A stretch of DNA of 33,198 bases. It comes from Nitrospirota bacterium (GTDB lineage Bacteria; Nitrospirota; Thermodesulfovibrionia; Thermodesulfovibrionales; SM23-35). This document shows positions 2,347-25,370 of the stretch, in pieces. Within the stretch, counting starts at the first letter, position 1, and each line of letters starts with the position of its first letter. The notes beneath the pieces were generated by a model that made no database searches, was not told where the DNA came from, and worked only from the letters and a program-made list of their open reading frames with translations. A program made the position numbers and the translations under genes. Where the stretch lies: positions 1 to 33,198 of the forward strand of contig JACAEY010000070.1 of the NCBI GenBank assembly GCA_013388605.1, in the 5' to 3' direction.

Positions 2347-3255
2347 TTATAATAAACCTAACTCTTCTGAATACTTCCTGAACAATCCAAGACCTCTTTT
2401 ATGCTCCTCAGTCAAATCAAAAGATATACATTTCCAGTATGAAAGGATTTCCTGTTCTTTGAGAAGCAATCCATGATTTTCAAATAGTAATTGCTTTAAT
2501 GCAGAGGCTATCTTATTCAGATGTTCTTTTGCAAGTCTCTTTGATTTATCAAGATCATAAGTAAATTTACTAATAAGATCAGGTTTTTCTTCCAATGAAT
2601 CTTTTCTCACAATCCATAAAGCAAAGACAAAAGGAAGCCCTGTATTTTTAAACCACAAATCTCCGAGGTCATATATATAATAAATAAGCCCGGAGTTCGG
2701 TGTTCTGAGTTCAGCGTTTTTAATCCGTTTCTCAATTTGTAACTTATGATTTGTAATTATTCTTTTTGCCTTTAAGGCATCATCGCCAATACAGAGAAAT
2801 GCATCTGCTTCATTGAGTAATGATTCGATTTTTTCATCTGTTGATTCAAAATAACACTCTATCTGAGAGAATTTTCTCAGAATTATATTGAGGAGAACAA
2901 CAGATGTATCTGATTGTGAGGTTGTAAAAACCTTTATCCCTCTTAGTTTATCGATTGGTATCCTGCTTATTAGGAGTATGCTTTCAATAGCTCCCTTTGA
3001 ACTAAGGGAATGTCCATCAATGTAAACATATCTATCTTTATATCTCAGATATTCGATTGATGAAGAAGGGCTTAAATCTATCTCCCCACTCCTTAATTTA
3101 CGATTTAACAAAGATGGAACACCTTCAATAAAATCATAATGCGAACAGTCACATTCATTCTGTAGCTCATAAAATATCGGGAAGAGATTTGCAAAAGGAA
3201 TCTTGCCTATTCTAAGAAGATTCCTTCTTTCTCTATTAATTGTATTAATTGTCAA
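2347..3255 (-). CDS. mqnA: Menaquinone biosynthesis protein MqnA (chorismate dehydratase, futalosine pathway)
   Basis: LRIGKIPFANLFPIFYEL, FIEGVPSLLNRKLRSGEIDLSPSSSIEY, YDLGDLWFKNTGLPFVFALWIVR. Confidence 0.88.
   Translation of the reverse strand: MTINTINRERRNLLRIGKIPFANLFPIFYELQNECDCSHYDFIEGVPSLLNRKLRSGEIDLSPSSSIEYLRYKDRYVYIDGHSLSSKGAIESILLISRIPIDKLRGIKVFTTSQSDTSVVLLNIILRKFSQIECYFESTDEKIESLLNEADAFLCIGDDALKAKRIITNHKLQIEKRIKNAELRTPNSGLIYYIYDLGDLWFKNTGLPFVFALWIVRKDSLEEKPDLISKFTYDLDKSKRLAKEHLNKIASALKQLLFENHGLLLKEQEILSYWKCISFDLTEEHKRGLGLFRKYSEELGLL
2691..2758. repeat. 7-nt-period repeat tract inside mqnA (GTTC at 2695/2702/2709; TTGTAA, TTATGA, TTGTAA at 2737/2744/2751)
   Basis: Exact 7-nt phase on reading; encodes IITNHKLQIEKRIKNAELRTPNSGL, which looks like an insertion relative to typical MqnA. 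Confidence 0.7.
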
Positions 3256-6263: not shown

Positions 6264-6461
6264 ATGACAATCGATAGAGAACTTCTTGAGATATTAGCAT
6301 GCCCGAAATGTAAGGGAGACATCAGGCTGGTAGAAAACTATACAGCAACAGGTGAAGATGGATTGGTCTGTGAAAAATGTAGACTACTTTATCCAATAAG
6401 GGACGGAATCCCTGTAATGTTGATAAATGAGGCAATCCCTTTAAATAAAAATGGGCATTGA
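6264..6461 (+). CDS. Trm112-like small zinc protein
   Basis: LLEILACPKCKGDIRL...LVCEKCRLLYPIRDGIPVML: four Cys and the Trm112 pattern. Confidence 0.9.
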   Translation: MTIDRELLEILACPKCKGDIRLVENYTATGEDGLVCEKCRLLYPIRDGIPVMLINEAIPLNKNGH

Positions 6462-7785
6462 TCAGAAGAGGTTGGATCCACGACTTCCCTTAATTCAGAA
6501 TGCTGATCTGAATGGAAAGGTTGTTCTTGTTAGATTCGACCATAATGTTGTTAAGGACGGAGAGATCAGAGACCCCTATAGAATTGACCGCTCTCTTGGA
6601 ACCCTCTATAACATTGTAGAGCGTGGTGGAAGACCAATTCTAATGACTCATGTGGGAAGACCAAGGGATAAAAAGACAGGCGAAATCAGATGCAGGTCAG
6701 GTGAATCTATTGAGTCCATTGTCGATTATCTTGAACATAAATTGCATATAAGATTCCATATACCTAAGTTTTATATAGACCCTAAATTTGGTATCCCGGG
6801 TATTGATACATCAATCAACCTTGCTATACGTGATTTAAAAGATAGGAAGGTTGGCGGGATTTATTTACCAAATACGAGGTGGTTCCAAGGTGAAGAGGCT
6901 GAAAGAGAGATAAGAGACAAATTTGCTTTACAACTTGCTGGACTCTCAGACATATTTATTAATGATGCATTCGGTTCATGGCAACCCCATGCCTCTACAT
7001 ATGATATTACCAGATACCTCCCTTCTTTTGCAGGTTTCTTAATGCAACAGGAAATTATTAATCTTGACTATGTGATCAATCCAAATAGACCTTTCCTCGC
7101 AGTTGTTGCAGGTGCTAAATATGACACTAAGATAAAACCACTTTATGCAATCTATGAGAAGGTGGATCACCTGATTCTCGGTGGAGTAATCTATAACACC
7201 TTTTTATGTGCTAAATATAAAATTTTCATAGAAGGTATACCTGAGAAAGATATCATCGCTGCAAAAGACCTTGTGGAAAAAGACAAAGCAAATAATAAGA
7301 TTATAGAACTTCCATATATTGTTGAATCTGATACACTCGAAGGACGCATCAAAGGTAAATATAGGACTATATTTATAAAGGACTTTAAAGAAGGCAAAAA
7401 GTACGGATATATCTTAGATATAGATCCAGAATCATTTAAAGAACCCTTTGTTATTGAGACTCTATTAAATGCAAAAACTATATTTGTCAATGCTGTTATG
7501 GGATATACACCCCATTTTACTTCAGGCTCAGAAGCACTTGATAGGACAATTGACCACAACCGAGTTGCCCTTAAGATGTATGGTGGCGGTGATACTCTAC
7601 AGGAGTTCAAGGACCTCTGTCCAGGTCTCTATCTTTCCGTCTTAGATAATACTCAATACTATTTCTTTACAGGAGGCGGAACTGTTTTAACAGCGATTGA
7701 ACAAGGAAGCCCTTATGGTCTGAAACCTGTTCAGGCATTAATAGAAAACCGCGACTCACCGGCTTCTCCTAAAATACCAACTTAG
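6451..7785 (+). CDS. Divergent phosphoglycerate kinase family protein (second PGK paralogue)
   Basis: GKVVLVRFDHNVV, MTHVGRP, NDAFGSWQPHAS, MYGGGDT, FTGGGTVLTAIEQG. Overlaps the Trm112-like ORF by 11 nt. Confidence 0.85.
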   Translation: MGIDQKRLDPRLPLIQNADLNGKVVLVRFDHNVVKDGEIRDPYRIDRSLGTLYNIVERGGRPILMTHVGRPRDKKTGEIRCRSGESIESIVDYLEHKLHIRFHIPKFYIDPKFGIPGIDTSINLAIRDLKDRKVGGIYLPNTRWFQGEEAEREIRDKFALQLAGLSDIFINDAFGSWQPHASTYDITRYLPSFAGFLMQQEIINLDYVINPNRPFLAVVAGAKYDTKIKPLYAIYEKVDHLILGGVIYNTFLCAKYKIFIEGIPEKDIIAAKDLVEKDKANNKIIELPYIVESDTLEGRIKGKYRTIFIKDFKEGKKYGYILDIDPESFKEPFVIETLLNAKTIFVNAVMGYTPHFTSGSEALDRTIDHNRVALKMYGGGDTLQEFKDLCPGLYLSVLDNTQYYFFTGGGTVLTAIEQGSPYGLKPVQALIENRDSPASPKIPT

Positions 7786-15389: not shown

Positions 15390-17656
<2,267 letters not shown>

Positions 17657-21323: not shown

Positions 21324-22803
21324 AATTCTCCTGATGAAGGTTGCGGTTCTCTCTGACAGTAACCTTCACATTATACAATTGTTCTATCATCTCAAGCCCG
21401 GCCCTTTCTTCATCAGAAAGGAGCTCAGCAACTGATGGGTGCGCAGTAACAACAATTTTTCCCCCGCCACTTCTTGCAATCTTCTTTATCTTCCTGAATA
21501 TTTCATAGCAGAGCGTCTTTGGTGATTTGACAAATCCTTTCCCTTCGCAATATGGACACGGTTCGCATAGGGTTCTTCCAAGGCTTTCTCTAACGCGTTT
21601 CCTCGTCATCTGGATAAGTCCGATTTCAGATATATGGGAAATTGTATTTTTTGCTCTGTCTTTTTTCATTGCATCAACAAAGGCATTGAATACCCGCTCC
21701 CTGTTTTCAGGTTTCTCCATATCTATGAAATCTACTATGATGATCCCTCCAAGATTCCTGAGTCTGATCTGATAGGCGACCTCCTTGACCGCTTCAAGAT
21801 TTGTTTTAAATATAGTATCCTCAAGCTCTTCTTTTCCAACAAATTTGCCTGTATTTACATCTATAACAGTCATAGCCTCTGTCTGGTCAAGAACAATATA
21901 TCCCCCTGATTTAAGCCAAACCTTTCTTCCAAGCGCCCTTGATAAATCAACCTCTATCCCATAGGCATCAAAAATAAGATCTGTTCCTTCATAGAGCTCT
22001 ATTTTATCTAAAAGCTTCTCGAAATTTGTTTTAACAAAATCTTTCAGTTTTTCATATTCTTCTTCAGAATCTATCACGAGCCTTTTTACATCAGGGCTCA
22101 TAAGGTCTCTAACGCTTCTGAAAACAAGATCGAGATCACTATAAAGAAGGGAGGGGGCTGATACTTTATCTTTTTTCTTCATTATTGTCTCCCATAATAA
22201 GAGGAGAAATTCAAGGTCTTTTTTAATGTCCTCTTCAGCTGATCCCTCGCTTGCAGTCCTGATTATAAGCCCATAACCTTTTGGCTTTATATCCCCTACA
22301 ATAGTCTTGAGCCTTATTCTTTCTGCTTCATTAGATATCCTCCTTGATATTCCAATATGTTCTACATTAGGCATGAGAACAAGATATCTGCCTGGCAGTG
22401 TTACATAAGAGGTTAGACGTGCACCCTTACTTCCAATGGGGTCTTTTGATACCTGAACAAGAATCTCCTGTCCTTCTTGAATAAGGTCTTCAATGGTAAT
22501 ATCTGTTTTGCCTTTTCTCGCAACAAGTTCAAGTGAATCATCTCTCTCTTCAATAAGTGGGGCGTATTCTTCAATATCAGCATGAATATCAGTAATATAC
22601 AAAAAAGCAGCCTTTTCGAGCCCAATATCAACAAATGCTGATTGCATTCCGGGTAGGATTTTAAGTACTCTCGCTTTGTATATATTACCTACAAGACTTG
22701 CATCCTGTTTTCTTTCTACATAAAATTCAACGACCTGACCACCTTCAAGTAGCGCAACTCTCGTTTCTTCGCGTGTTACATTAATTAAGATCTCGCTATC
22801 CAT
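21304..22803 (-). CDS. rng: Ribonuclease E/G family protein (RNase G-like)
   Basis: EILINVTREETRVALLEGGQVVEFYVER, IYKARVLKILPGMQSAFVDIGLEKAAFLYI, DVNTGKFVG, GGIIIVDFIDM, QMTRKRVRESL, EPCPYCEGKG. Confidence 0.95.
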   Translation of the reverse strand: MDSEILINVTREETRVALLEGGQVVEFYVERKQDASLVGNIYKARVLKILPGMQSAFVDIGLEKAAFLYITDIHADIEEYAPLIEERDDSLELVARKGKTDITIEDLIQEGQEILVQVSKDPIGSKGARLTSYVTLPGRYLVLMPNVEHIGISRRISNEAERIRLKTIVGDIKPKGYGLIIRTASEGSAEEDIKKDLEFLLLLWETIMKKKDKVSAPSLLYSDLDLVFRSVRDLMSPDVKRLVIDSEEEYEKLKDFVKTNFEKLLDKIELYEGTDLIFDAYGIEVDLSRALGRKVWLKSGGYIVLDQTEAMTVIDVNTGKFVGKEELEDTIFKTNLEAVKEVAYQIRLRNLGGIIIVDFIDMEKPENRERVFNAFVDAMKKDRAKNTISHISEIGLIQMTRKRVRESLGRTLCEPCPYCEGKGFVKSPKTLCYEIFRKIKKIARSGGGKIVVTAHPSVAELLSDEERAGLEMIEQLYNVKVTVRENRNLHQENYEVSVL

Positions 22804-25370
22804 TGAGATCTCCTTTCAAGAGGACTCAACCACGCTCCATCCCACCCATAAAGAGCTACTCTCATTATATCTAATTCTTTCATAGGAACTCCGAATATCA
22901 TAGGGAGAAGTTCACTTAGTCGGACCTTCAATATTTTAAGGTCAACAACTGTCAAATATACTGTGTTGTCATCTACTATTTTTATATCCTCTACCATGTC
23001 CCTTAGGTTTATAACATCCCCTTTCCTTTGAATATATACTTCATTTTCTGATAAAAAGAACTTGACAGGGGAAAGGTTATTACATTTTATCCTATACCTA
23101 TACCTTGTTATAAAGCTACTGAGGGAACTTACATGGGGAGATATAGTTAACATATCTCTAATATAGATCCCTTTAGGAAGAGTATCGTTTAATTTTCTCA
23201 TGTTTAAAAGTGTATCGAAAGGGGGTATAAATTCTACATCAAAATATTCGCAAATACCTCCGATACCAACGCCGAGTGGAGGTCCAAAGGATATTTTGGG
23301 GGTAGGATGGAAACCTTCTGTATATACAAGTGGCAAACAAGCTCTCCTCATAGCCCGATGAAGTACATCTATAAGTTCAAGATGTGAAAGATAACGCAAT
23401 CTGCCTATTTTTGAGAATTCAACCCTTATCCTTAGTGGCTTAAAGTGCTTCTTAATCCCGTTATATTCAACCTTACTAAAGGAAGAATTAAAGGTAGGTG
23501 AGAGGAGATTTGAGTTCGTAGGCTGGGATTCAGACTCAATAGTTGCAATTTGTAGCTTGTTACTTTCTTTACACCCAAGTCCACATTTCTGGCATATTCT
23601 TCTGCAATCAGGTGTTAAATTTTCATCAAAGGCTTTTAGTCTTTCCCCCCAGAGAAAATCTTTACTTACACCGACATCTATTATGTCCCAGGGGAGTATA
23701 TCTGAGATTGTATATTCTTTTCTTGCAAAGTCTTCTGTATTTATACCTGTTATACCCATTGCCTCTTCCCATTTCTCAAAGTTGAAGACCTCAGACCATC
23801 CATCAAGCCTGCATCCTTCTGACCATGCTTTCTCAATCAGAAGACCTATGCTTTCATCTCCACGACAAAAAGCAGCCTCAAGAAGGCTCATTCTATCATC
23901 ATGGTCTTTGATATTAAAACCCTTTTTCAAAAGGACATCTCTAAGATATTTCTTTTTTCTTCTGAGATCTTCTAAAGAAGGTTGACCAAACCACTGAAAA
24001 GGTGTATGGGACTTAGGAACAAATGAAGAAATACCAATGTTTATATTAACAAATCTATTTGTGTATTTTTTTGAAATTTTAAGAGATTTTAAAACCATTT
24101 TGGGTATTGCCTCTATATCTTCATCATCTTCTGTAGGGAGTCCAATCATAAAGTATAGCTTTAAATTATGCCATCCTTCTTCGAAGAGTATTTTTAATGC
24201 CACTTCATACTCTTCCTCTGAGAAGTCTTTATTTATTACTTTTCTCAATCTATCAGTGCCAGCTTCAGGTGCTATTGTGAAACCGGTTTTTCTTACAGCC
24301 CTTATCTCCTTCAGGATTTCAGAATTTATTGACCCAACCCTGAGAGAAGGTAGAGATATAACAATTTTGTTTTTTGAAAATCTCCTGTTGAATTCTTTTA
24401 AAATATGTAAAAGGCAACTATAGTCTCCTGCGCTCAAAGATGTGAAAGAGACCTCTTCATATCCTGTATTCTTAAGGGAATTTTCTGCGATTTCCATAAT
24501 ATTTTCAGGGGATCTCTCACGAACTGGCCTGTAAATTATCCCTGCCTGACAAAATCTGCATCCTCTTGAACAACCTCTTGAAACCTCAATATTTACTCGG
24601 TCATGGACTATGGATGTATATGGTACAACTGGATTGTCTGGATAAGGGGCTTCATCGAGGGATTTGATAAAACGGCGCTTTATTCGTGTTAAATATTGAG
24701 TGTTGAGCGTCGGGTTAAAAAACTCCGAACTCCGAACTTTAAACTTTGAACTATGAACTGAAGGCACATACATCCCTTCAATCTCGGCTAATGCCTTAAA
24801 AAGGGATTCTTTCTTACTATCTCCTGTCTTTCTCCAGTTATAATATAACTCAACTACTTCTCTTATGGCATCTTCACCATCGCCAATCAAGAAGGCGTCA
24901 ATAAAGCGAGACATTGGTTTGGGGTTTACAGTACATGGTCCACCAGCAATAATAAGTGGATAACTATATAATGAATTAGCTCTTTCTTCAGACTTTAAAG
25001 GTATTCCCCCAAGATAGAGCATATTCAGGACAGTTGTATATGATAGTTCATATTGGAGGCTAAAACCAACAATATCAAAATCTTTCAACGGACGGCCAAA
25101 TTCTAACGATGTAATAGGTATCCCTTTTGCTTTTAACTCTGCTTCAAGGTCTATCCATGGAGAGAAGACCCTTTCAGCAGATGCAAAGGGAAGGTCATTT
25201 ATTATCTTGTAAAGTATTTTGAGACCGAGATGAGACATACCAATCTCATACACATCAGGGAATGCAAGGGCTACCTTTACAGGGGCTTCCTTATGAATAG
25301 AGTTAATCTCATTGTTTATATATCTGCTCGGTCTCCGGAAAGATGAGAGGTTCATAGCTAAGGATACCAT
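22785..25370 (-). CDS. TIGR03960-family radical SAM protein fused to TIGR03936/DUF2344 domain
   Basis: EVSRGCSRGCRFCQAGIIYRPVRERSPENI (CxxxCxxC); second domain RIRVEFSKIGRLRYLSHLELIDVLHRAMRRACLPLVYTEGFHPTPKISFGPPLGVG. Confidence 0.93.
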   Translation of the reverse strand: MVSLAMNLSSFRRPSRYINNEINSIHKEAPVKVALAFPDVYEIGMSHLGLKILYKIINDLPFASAERVFSPWIDLEAELKAKGIPITSLEFGRPLKDFDIVGFSLQYELSYTTVLNMLYLGGIPLKSEERANSLYSYPLIIAGGPCTVNPKPMSRFIDAFLIGDGEDAIREVVELYYNWRKTGDSKKESLFKALAEIEGMYVPSVHSSKFKVRSSEFFNPTLNTQYLTRIKRRFIKSLDEAPYPDNPVVPYTSIVHDRVNIEVSRGCSRGCRFCQAGIIYRPVRERSPENIMEIAENSLKNTGYEEVSFTSLSAGDYSCLLHILKEFNRRFSKNKIVISLPSLRVGSINSEILKEIRAVRKTGFTIAPEAGTDRLRKVINKDFSEEEYEVALKILFEEGWHNLKLYFMIGLPTEDDEDIEAIPKMVLKSLKISKKYTNRFVNINIGISSFVPKSHTPFQWFGQPSLEDLRRKKKYLRDVLLKKGFNIKDHDDRMSLLEAAFCRGDESIGLLIEKAWSEGCRLDGWSEVFNFEKWEEAMGITGINTEDFARKEYTISDILPWDIIDVGVSKDFLWGERLKAFDENLTPDCRRICQKCGLGCKESNKLQIATIESESQPTNSNLLSPTFNSSFSKVEYNGIKKHFKPLRIRVEFSKIGRLRYLSHLELIDVLHRAMRRACLPLVYTEGFHPTPKISFGPPLGVGIGGICEYFDVEFIPPFDTLLNMRKLNDTLPKGIYIRDMLTISPHVSSLSSFITRYRYRIKCNNLSPVKFFLSENEVYIQRKGDVINLRDMVEDIKIVDDNTVYLTVVDLKILKVRLSELLPMIFGVPMKELDIMRVALYGWDGAWLSPLERRSQWIARS
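23543..23563. repeat. 7-nt-phased TTG(C/T)A(A/G) repeat in the interdomain linker of the radical SAM gene
   Basis: TTG at 23543, 23550 and 23557; coding strand AGTAACA-AGCTACA-AATTGCA. Confidence 0.5.
24689..24759. repeat. 7-nt-period repeat tracts inside the radical SAM gene: AACT at 24721, 24728, 24735, 24742, 24749, 24756; TTAAA/TTGAG/TTGAG at 24689/24696/24703
   Basis: Six consecutive units in exact 7-nt register plus three of a second unit; encodes SSKFKVRSSEFFNPTLNTQYL. Confidence 0.88.

Follow-up and report, generated by a model that had tools for sequence, protein, structure and literature searches.

A conserved radical SAM gene of an uncultured Nitrospirota bacterium carries, in frame, a short palindrome built of 7-nt units (heptads), and palindromes of the same kind recur within and between genes in its genome and those of its relatives. 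The segment is probably one copy of a class of dispersed, small, non-autonomous palindromic elements that resemble Rickettsia palindromic elements (RPEs), are filtered by selection to permissive loops and turn over their units rapidly. The window, the whole stretch of DNA analysed, is 33,198 nt long and is an entire contig of a 1.675-Mb draft genome. Genomes are given as G-numbers (G000 being the window's own) and loci as L-numbers; most of the genomes compared are MAGs.

An imperfect palindrome of heptads in a radical SAM gene

The host gene (22785..25370, minus strand) is intact and encodes an 861-aa protein in which a B12-binding radical SAM protein (TIGR03960) is fused to TIGR03936/DUF2344. 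The CxxxCxxC cysteines (C267, C271 and C274) are invariant. Among publicly available genomes, the top radical SAM relative comes from a Thermodesulfovibrionales MAG (69% identity). The right arm of the element, (AACTNNN)5 AACT, spans 24721..24759 on the plus strand; AACT starts at 24721, 24728, 24735, 24742, 24749 and 24756, in the exact 7-nt register that the initial annotation reported. That annotation also described TTAAA, TTGAG and TTGAG at 24689, 24696 and 24703 as a second unit type. The units do lie at these positions, but they are better described as the inverted arm of the AACT units: both sequence and pair polarity define a left arm of degenerate GTT-type heptads (GTTAAAT ATTGAGT GTTGAGC GTCGGGT T; 24689..24716, plus strand) that is inverted with respect to the right arm. 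The two are separated by a loop, AAAA (24717..24720), at which RNA folding places the apex of a hairpin. The element is thus an imperfect palindrome of inverted heptad arms, beyond a plain direct array. This copy has eroded arms, and folding predicts a weak hairpin for it (z of -1.5 for RNA and -0.06 for DNA).

The minus-strand gene reads through the element in frame as VHSSKFKVRSSEFFNPTLNTQYLTR, between IEGMYVPS and DEAPYPDNP, just as had been claimed. Peptides such as SSKFKVR and SSEFFNPTLNTQYLTR would derive from this insert of the host protein if it is translated, and the element-encoded peptide (residues 209–227; 24690..24746, minus strand) is predicted to form a disordered loop, with pLDDT under 50. 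The period-7 score at the element is 19.5. Among 300 Markov-3 windows the highest score was 13.5, and none of 5000 codon-shuffled copies of the host gene reached 19.5. This is the one strong period-7 array of the window and is also detected by TRF.

A second, degenerate heptad array (AACGCTG AACTCAG AACACCG AACT; 2694..2718, minus strand) lies in frame in a menaquinone-biosynthesis (PF02621) gene at 2347–3255. In the G104 homologue of that gene (L178), an array adjoins the same YIYDLG(D/E)LW motif. The window also holds two phosphoglycerate kinase homologues, at 6451–7785 (plus strand) and 15390–16631 (minus strand), the former far more divergent from the Pfam PGK model (258 versus 531 bits).

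The same site in TIGR03960 orthologues

Comparison with 30 TIGR03960 orthologues identifies the loop at residues 209–227 as an insertion hot spot, with a period-7 array in 9 of the 30. A second hot spot is the linker between the two domains (residues 601–642; 23445..23570, minus strand), where 13 of the 30 carry arrays and the window's own copy has no clear one. Loop and linker together account for 27 of the 29 period-7 or period-8 arrays found in these orthologues, and they are the only regions, chain ends apart, that AlphaFold predicts to be disordered.

The loop is filled in many ways. AGTTNNN heptads occupy it in the window copy, L143, L156 and L164, AACTCAA/AGCTCAA units in L139, (CACTCAT)n in L142 and L150, and CATTCAG/CATCCTT units in L149; a C-rich palindrome takes their place in L141 and L144 and accompanies the heptads in L164. 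In L148, L155, L158, L160, L163 and L165 the loop is short and heptad-free; at the exact site of the element, close Nitrospirota relatives thus have a shorter loop without heptads. In more distant taxa (Geomonas, Clostridia) the loop is about as long as in the window copy, but its sequence does not align. Relative to them the TIGR03960 loop has therefore been refilled, not simply lengthened. These sequences indicate a permissive position that has been refilled again and again. There is a possible third array site near residue 142 in L150 and L164 (CTGGCCACTGGCCACTGGCCACT; TGACTACTGACTACTGGCCACTG).

The C-rich palindrome, CCCCCC..CCCCCCTT(N)AAGGGGGG..GGGGGG, encodes the peptide PPTPPLxKGGxGG. 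It shares heptad loops in many relatives, sometimes directly adjacent to the heptads (the loop in L141, L144 and L164; PrmC site 3 in L208, L210 and L211; also L226, L233, L261 and L267–L270). Nothing in the window's own genome matches it well. Versions of the palindromes with an 8-nt period occur in the linker of L140, L144 and L147 and in HemH of L234 and L236; L140 contains a perfect 18-nt inverted repeat, GAAGTTAGGAAGTTGTGA.

A genome-wide class with fixed polarity

Period-7 arrays are abundant in these genomes. The own-genome sample, every eighth contig plus the window (231 kb), contains 17 arrays, where 0.5 would be expected. In 349 kb of G104, a member of the same order, there are 66 (0–1 expected), reaching one per 5 kb, together with 14 octad arrays; 107 kb of G284, from the same family, yields 12 (0.5 expected). 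Local triplet shuffles gave 66 arrays versus 1 and 16 versus 0, real versus shuffled. Hence 7-nt periodicity, which might have been no higher than in shuffled sequence, is genome-wide far above both the Markov and the triplet-shuffle nulls. A reversed control pattern was unusable as a null, since reverse complements of AACTTTG arrays match it too, and a looser search for three units with one mismatch stayed at noise level (37/19 versus 29/21 for the control). Heptad arrays are few in G142; its sample (L188–L197, same family as the window) has period-9/18 arrays of AAACNCAAT units instead (9 observed, 0 expected).

These counts bear on another account of the segment, in which a variable loop has simply drifted and its 7-nt register arose by coincidence or as an assembly artefact. 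The site is length-variable in the family, and the unrelated loop of similar length in distant taxa would fit drift. Against it stand the codon shuffles that never reach the observed score, the recurrence of units and the presence of the class in many independently assembled genomes. The genome-wide enrichment already refutes this account, to which we give almost no credence.

Arrays share a consensus and an anatomy. AGTTCAA is matched at 5/7 or better by 72% of arrays, compared with 21% at random, and unit families are many (GTTCACN, GATGCAC, AATTCAA, GAGCAAA, GATTGAA and others). An inverted partner scoring above the 99th percentile of the null accompanies 36% of arrays. In G104, neighbouring pairs are inverted in 17 cases and direct in 3, and an array's own partner matches better than a shuffled one (p 0.0055). 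Moreover, AGTT-type paired elements have AGTT on the left and AACT on the right in 12 cases and the reverse in none. The pattern is 5'-(AGTTYAA-like)n - short loop - (TTRAACT-like)n-3', with arms of 3–7 heptads and an overall length of ~30–80 bp (about 60–80 bp for two-armed copies). Many copies are single-armed, and some pair arms of different unit families, as in AroC (GAGCAAA and AACTCCG). In G000, the window's own genome, heptad palindromes are also found next to tRNA-like genes or in the gaps between them (L010 and L024; contigs C28 and C5).

At the loci of orthologues, Nitrospirota relatives have 20 arrays in 146 kb. In the flanks of ~75 loci from other phyla there are none in 195 kb of Clostridia, 2 in 104 kb of Desulfobacterota and 4 in 156 kb of others. 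Searches for a phage or viral counterpart, by exact 25-mer in viral contigs and by blastn of the site against phages, were both empty.

Arrays within conserved enzymes

Arrays are commoner between genes than within them. ORFs make up 86% of the G104 sequence but hold 25 of its 66 arrays, a density per kb about tenfold below that of intergenic DNA. Nevertheless, roughly 40% of arrays are found in frame within genes. Hosts recognised by NCBIfam are FPP synthase, QueC, BioD, AroC, LeuRS, CarA, PyrC and CobA-HemD in the window's own genome, GuaA, PrmC, BioA, KdsB, HemH, HemG and MoeA in G104, and YggS and DapF in G284. Among in-gene examples picked for having arrays, alignment to solved homologues places extra residues at the array in AroC (293–316), QueC (208–239), PrmC (115–133), KdsB and DapF, and a small extra segment in GuaA. 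The suggestion that the repeat can invade ORFs without destroying them thus holds for the class, the same family being found in frame in many conserved enzymes. Judging from the intact reading frames, the inserts would be translated in their host enzymes.

Intergenic enrichment, together with fixed polarity and conserved 7-nt spacing, would also be expected of selected binding sites for an RNA-binding protein, a nucleoid protein or a regulator, a role proposed for the intergenic TAACTGA heptads of Beggiatoaceae. Binding sites would, however, have to accommodate unit sequences that change from one orthologous site to the next, arrays in housekeeping genes that some congeners have and others lack, and hosts that belong to no common gene class. 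We regard selection for binding as improbable.

Rapid turnover among close relatives

Turnover is most readily appreciated in the genus of G104, compared across eight genomes. MoeA orthologues are 88–92% identical elsewhere, and in two species (G126 and G307) the loop that follows VIMIEDVNV holds no insert. Other congeners have four different fills: GTTCACG; AGAGTCA with AACTCCG; CAGGTGT; and GGGGTCAA units. Fills also differ among congeners in the KdsB, HemH and PrmC loops. L210 departs from its relatives in the units of both arms at PrmC site 1, and at PrmC site 2 a constant length of 35 nt is retained while the units change. The latter pattern better suits in-place conversion than re-insertion. 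In the window's own family, one AroC loop is empty, heptad-filled or occupied by a C-rich palindrome. Across close relatives a site may thus be vacant or hold another fill, while unit period and arm polarity are kept.

Local hypermutation could produce some of these features with no movement between loci, slippage building arrays in permissive loops and fold-back template switching making the inverted arm. It would account for units that are uniform along each arm yet vary from species to species at a given site, for arms that often have slightly different units, and for the ends and length kept at PrmC site 2 as the interior changes. Local hypermutation does not readily explain why the same few unit families occur at dozens of unrelated loci, 72% of arrays being AGTTCAA-like, nor why C-rich palindromes come and go at the same sites and adjoin heptads. 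Moreover, MoeA flanks that are about 90% identical leave little time for substitution and homogenisation to yield wholly different units. We therefore consider a purely local origin unlikely and favour dispersal of elements between loci.

How such elements could spread

Copies would be inserted, or would overwrite each other, by non-autonomous copying; candidate routes are a transposase acting in trans and, between copies at different loci, ectopic gene conversion or template switching. Slippage in 7-nt steps would then lengthen the arms and make them uniform, and purifying selection would remove copies that break fold or frame, with total length alone having to restore the frame. Periods of 7 and 8 are coprime to 3, so that an array encodes one and the same cycle of residues, 7 long for heptads, whichever frame is read. 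An array free of stops over the 21-nt cycle is consequently open wherever it lands, and more landings are tolerated, in keeping with the initial proposal that the repeat can stay open in several frames. The period is nonetheless identical in arrays that lie between genes and is therefore a property of the generator, not of the coding filter. Several points count against this scheme. Element boundaries are too fuzzy for terminal ends or a target-site duplication to be defined, and insertion as a discrete unit is therefore not proved. Single-armed copies, arms of unlike unit families, the weak folding of the window's copy and the constant length at PrmC site 2 also tell against it, as does the failure to find a mobilising enzyme.

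Two enzymes were rejected as required agents. The Y1 transposase profile PF01797 has 0 matches in the window's own genome and in the element-rich G126, and G205, G213 and G266 are not among the genomes with a match. The reverse transcriptase profile PF00078 (RVT_1), which a reverse-transcriptase-templated (diversity-generating) repeat would call for, has 0 matches in G000, G104, G126, G213 and G256.

More tentatively, and with some doubt, the class may be a mobile or self-propagating repeat that inherits geometry (a 7- or 8-nt period, two inverted arms and fixed polarity), not sequence, dispersed copies swapping cassettes at fixed permissive loops, driven by an undescribed enzyme. If so, orthologues in sister species would receive different peptides at the same place.

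Relation to known repeats

Like RPEs and the Wolbachia palindromic elements, the elements described here are palindromic and dispersed, and lie both between genes and in frame in genes for conserved proteins, at sites that are empty in relatives, with a product that is apparently functional; gmk with an RPE inside it still yields an active enzyme (PMC2229807, PMC10969869). Whereas RPEs form families of 105–150 bp with terminal inverted repeats and a conserved sequence and peptide, the present elements are heptad-built and their units vary by species, differing even at orthologous sites. Their hosts are free-living Nitrospirota, and their density in the richest genome sampled is higher.

TAACTGA heptamer repeats of marine Beggiatoaceae, Cyanobacteria and Bacteroidetes share the 7-nt unit, an AACT core and short dispersed arrays, a few of them in ORFs (PMC4679880). 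They have one fixed unit, almost always direct, whose 'forward' form stops all three frames, and for the most part they sit immediately ahead of start codons or where genes end; the present class has an AGTTCAA-like consensus, many unit families and inverted arms, and occupies enzyme loops. The heptanucleotide repeats of Calothrix and the GGGAATC/GGGGA(C/T)T repeats of Xanthomonas and Nostoc are likewise dispersed and mostly non-coding, but are G-rich quadruplex formers with four units preferred, the parts of that account available to us describing no inverted-arm anatomy (PMC4692102). Tandem repeats of Bacillus and other bacteria also keep repeat length constant while sequence varies between families and species (PMC8161180). 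Those repeats, from a search that left out units under 10 nt, are 20–21 or 52 nt long, chiefly non-coding and do not form palindromic pairs within enzyme loops.

REP/REPIN elements, which have RAYT (Y1) transposases, and MITEs are also small non-autonomous palindromes at many loci. The present class differs in that no Y1 transposase was found in the window's own genome or in several element-rich relatives, and in having no defined terminal sequence; inverted arms are present, but their boundaries are too fuzzy to call the target-site duplication that marks a MITE. In the open-access papers searched, outside which most subscription papers fall, we found no description of heptads combined with inverted arms and enzyme loops.

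Significance

Palindromes that encode protein have, to our knowledge, been described mainly in Rickettsia and Wolbachia. The architecture seen here is different, occurs at high density in uncultured Nitrospirota and places foreign peptides in essential enzymes, with turnover visible within a genus. The elements are also a warning that variable loops in these genomes can be repeat-derived and not functional insertions. The elements are fast-changing, apparently mobile repeats that add peptide loops to conserved proteins. They make it possible to test how repeats invade coding sequence, why the period is 7 nt and how old proteins gain new loops.
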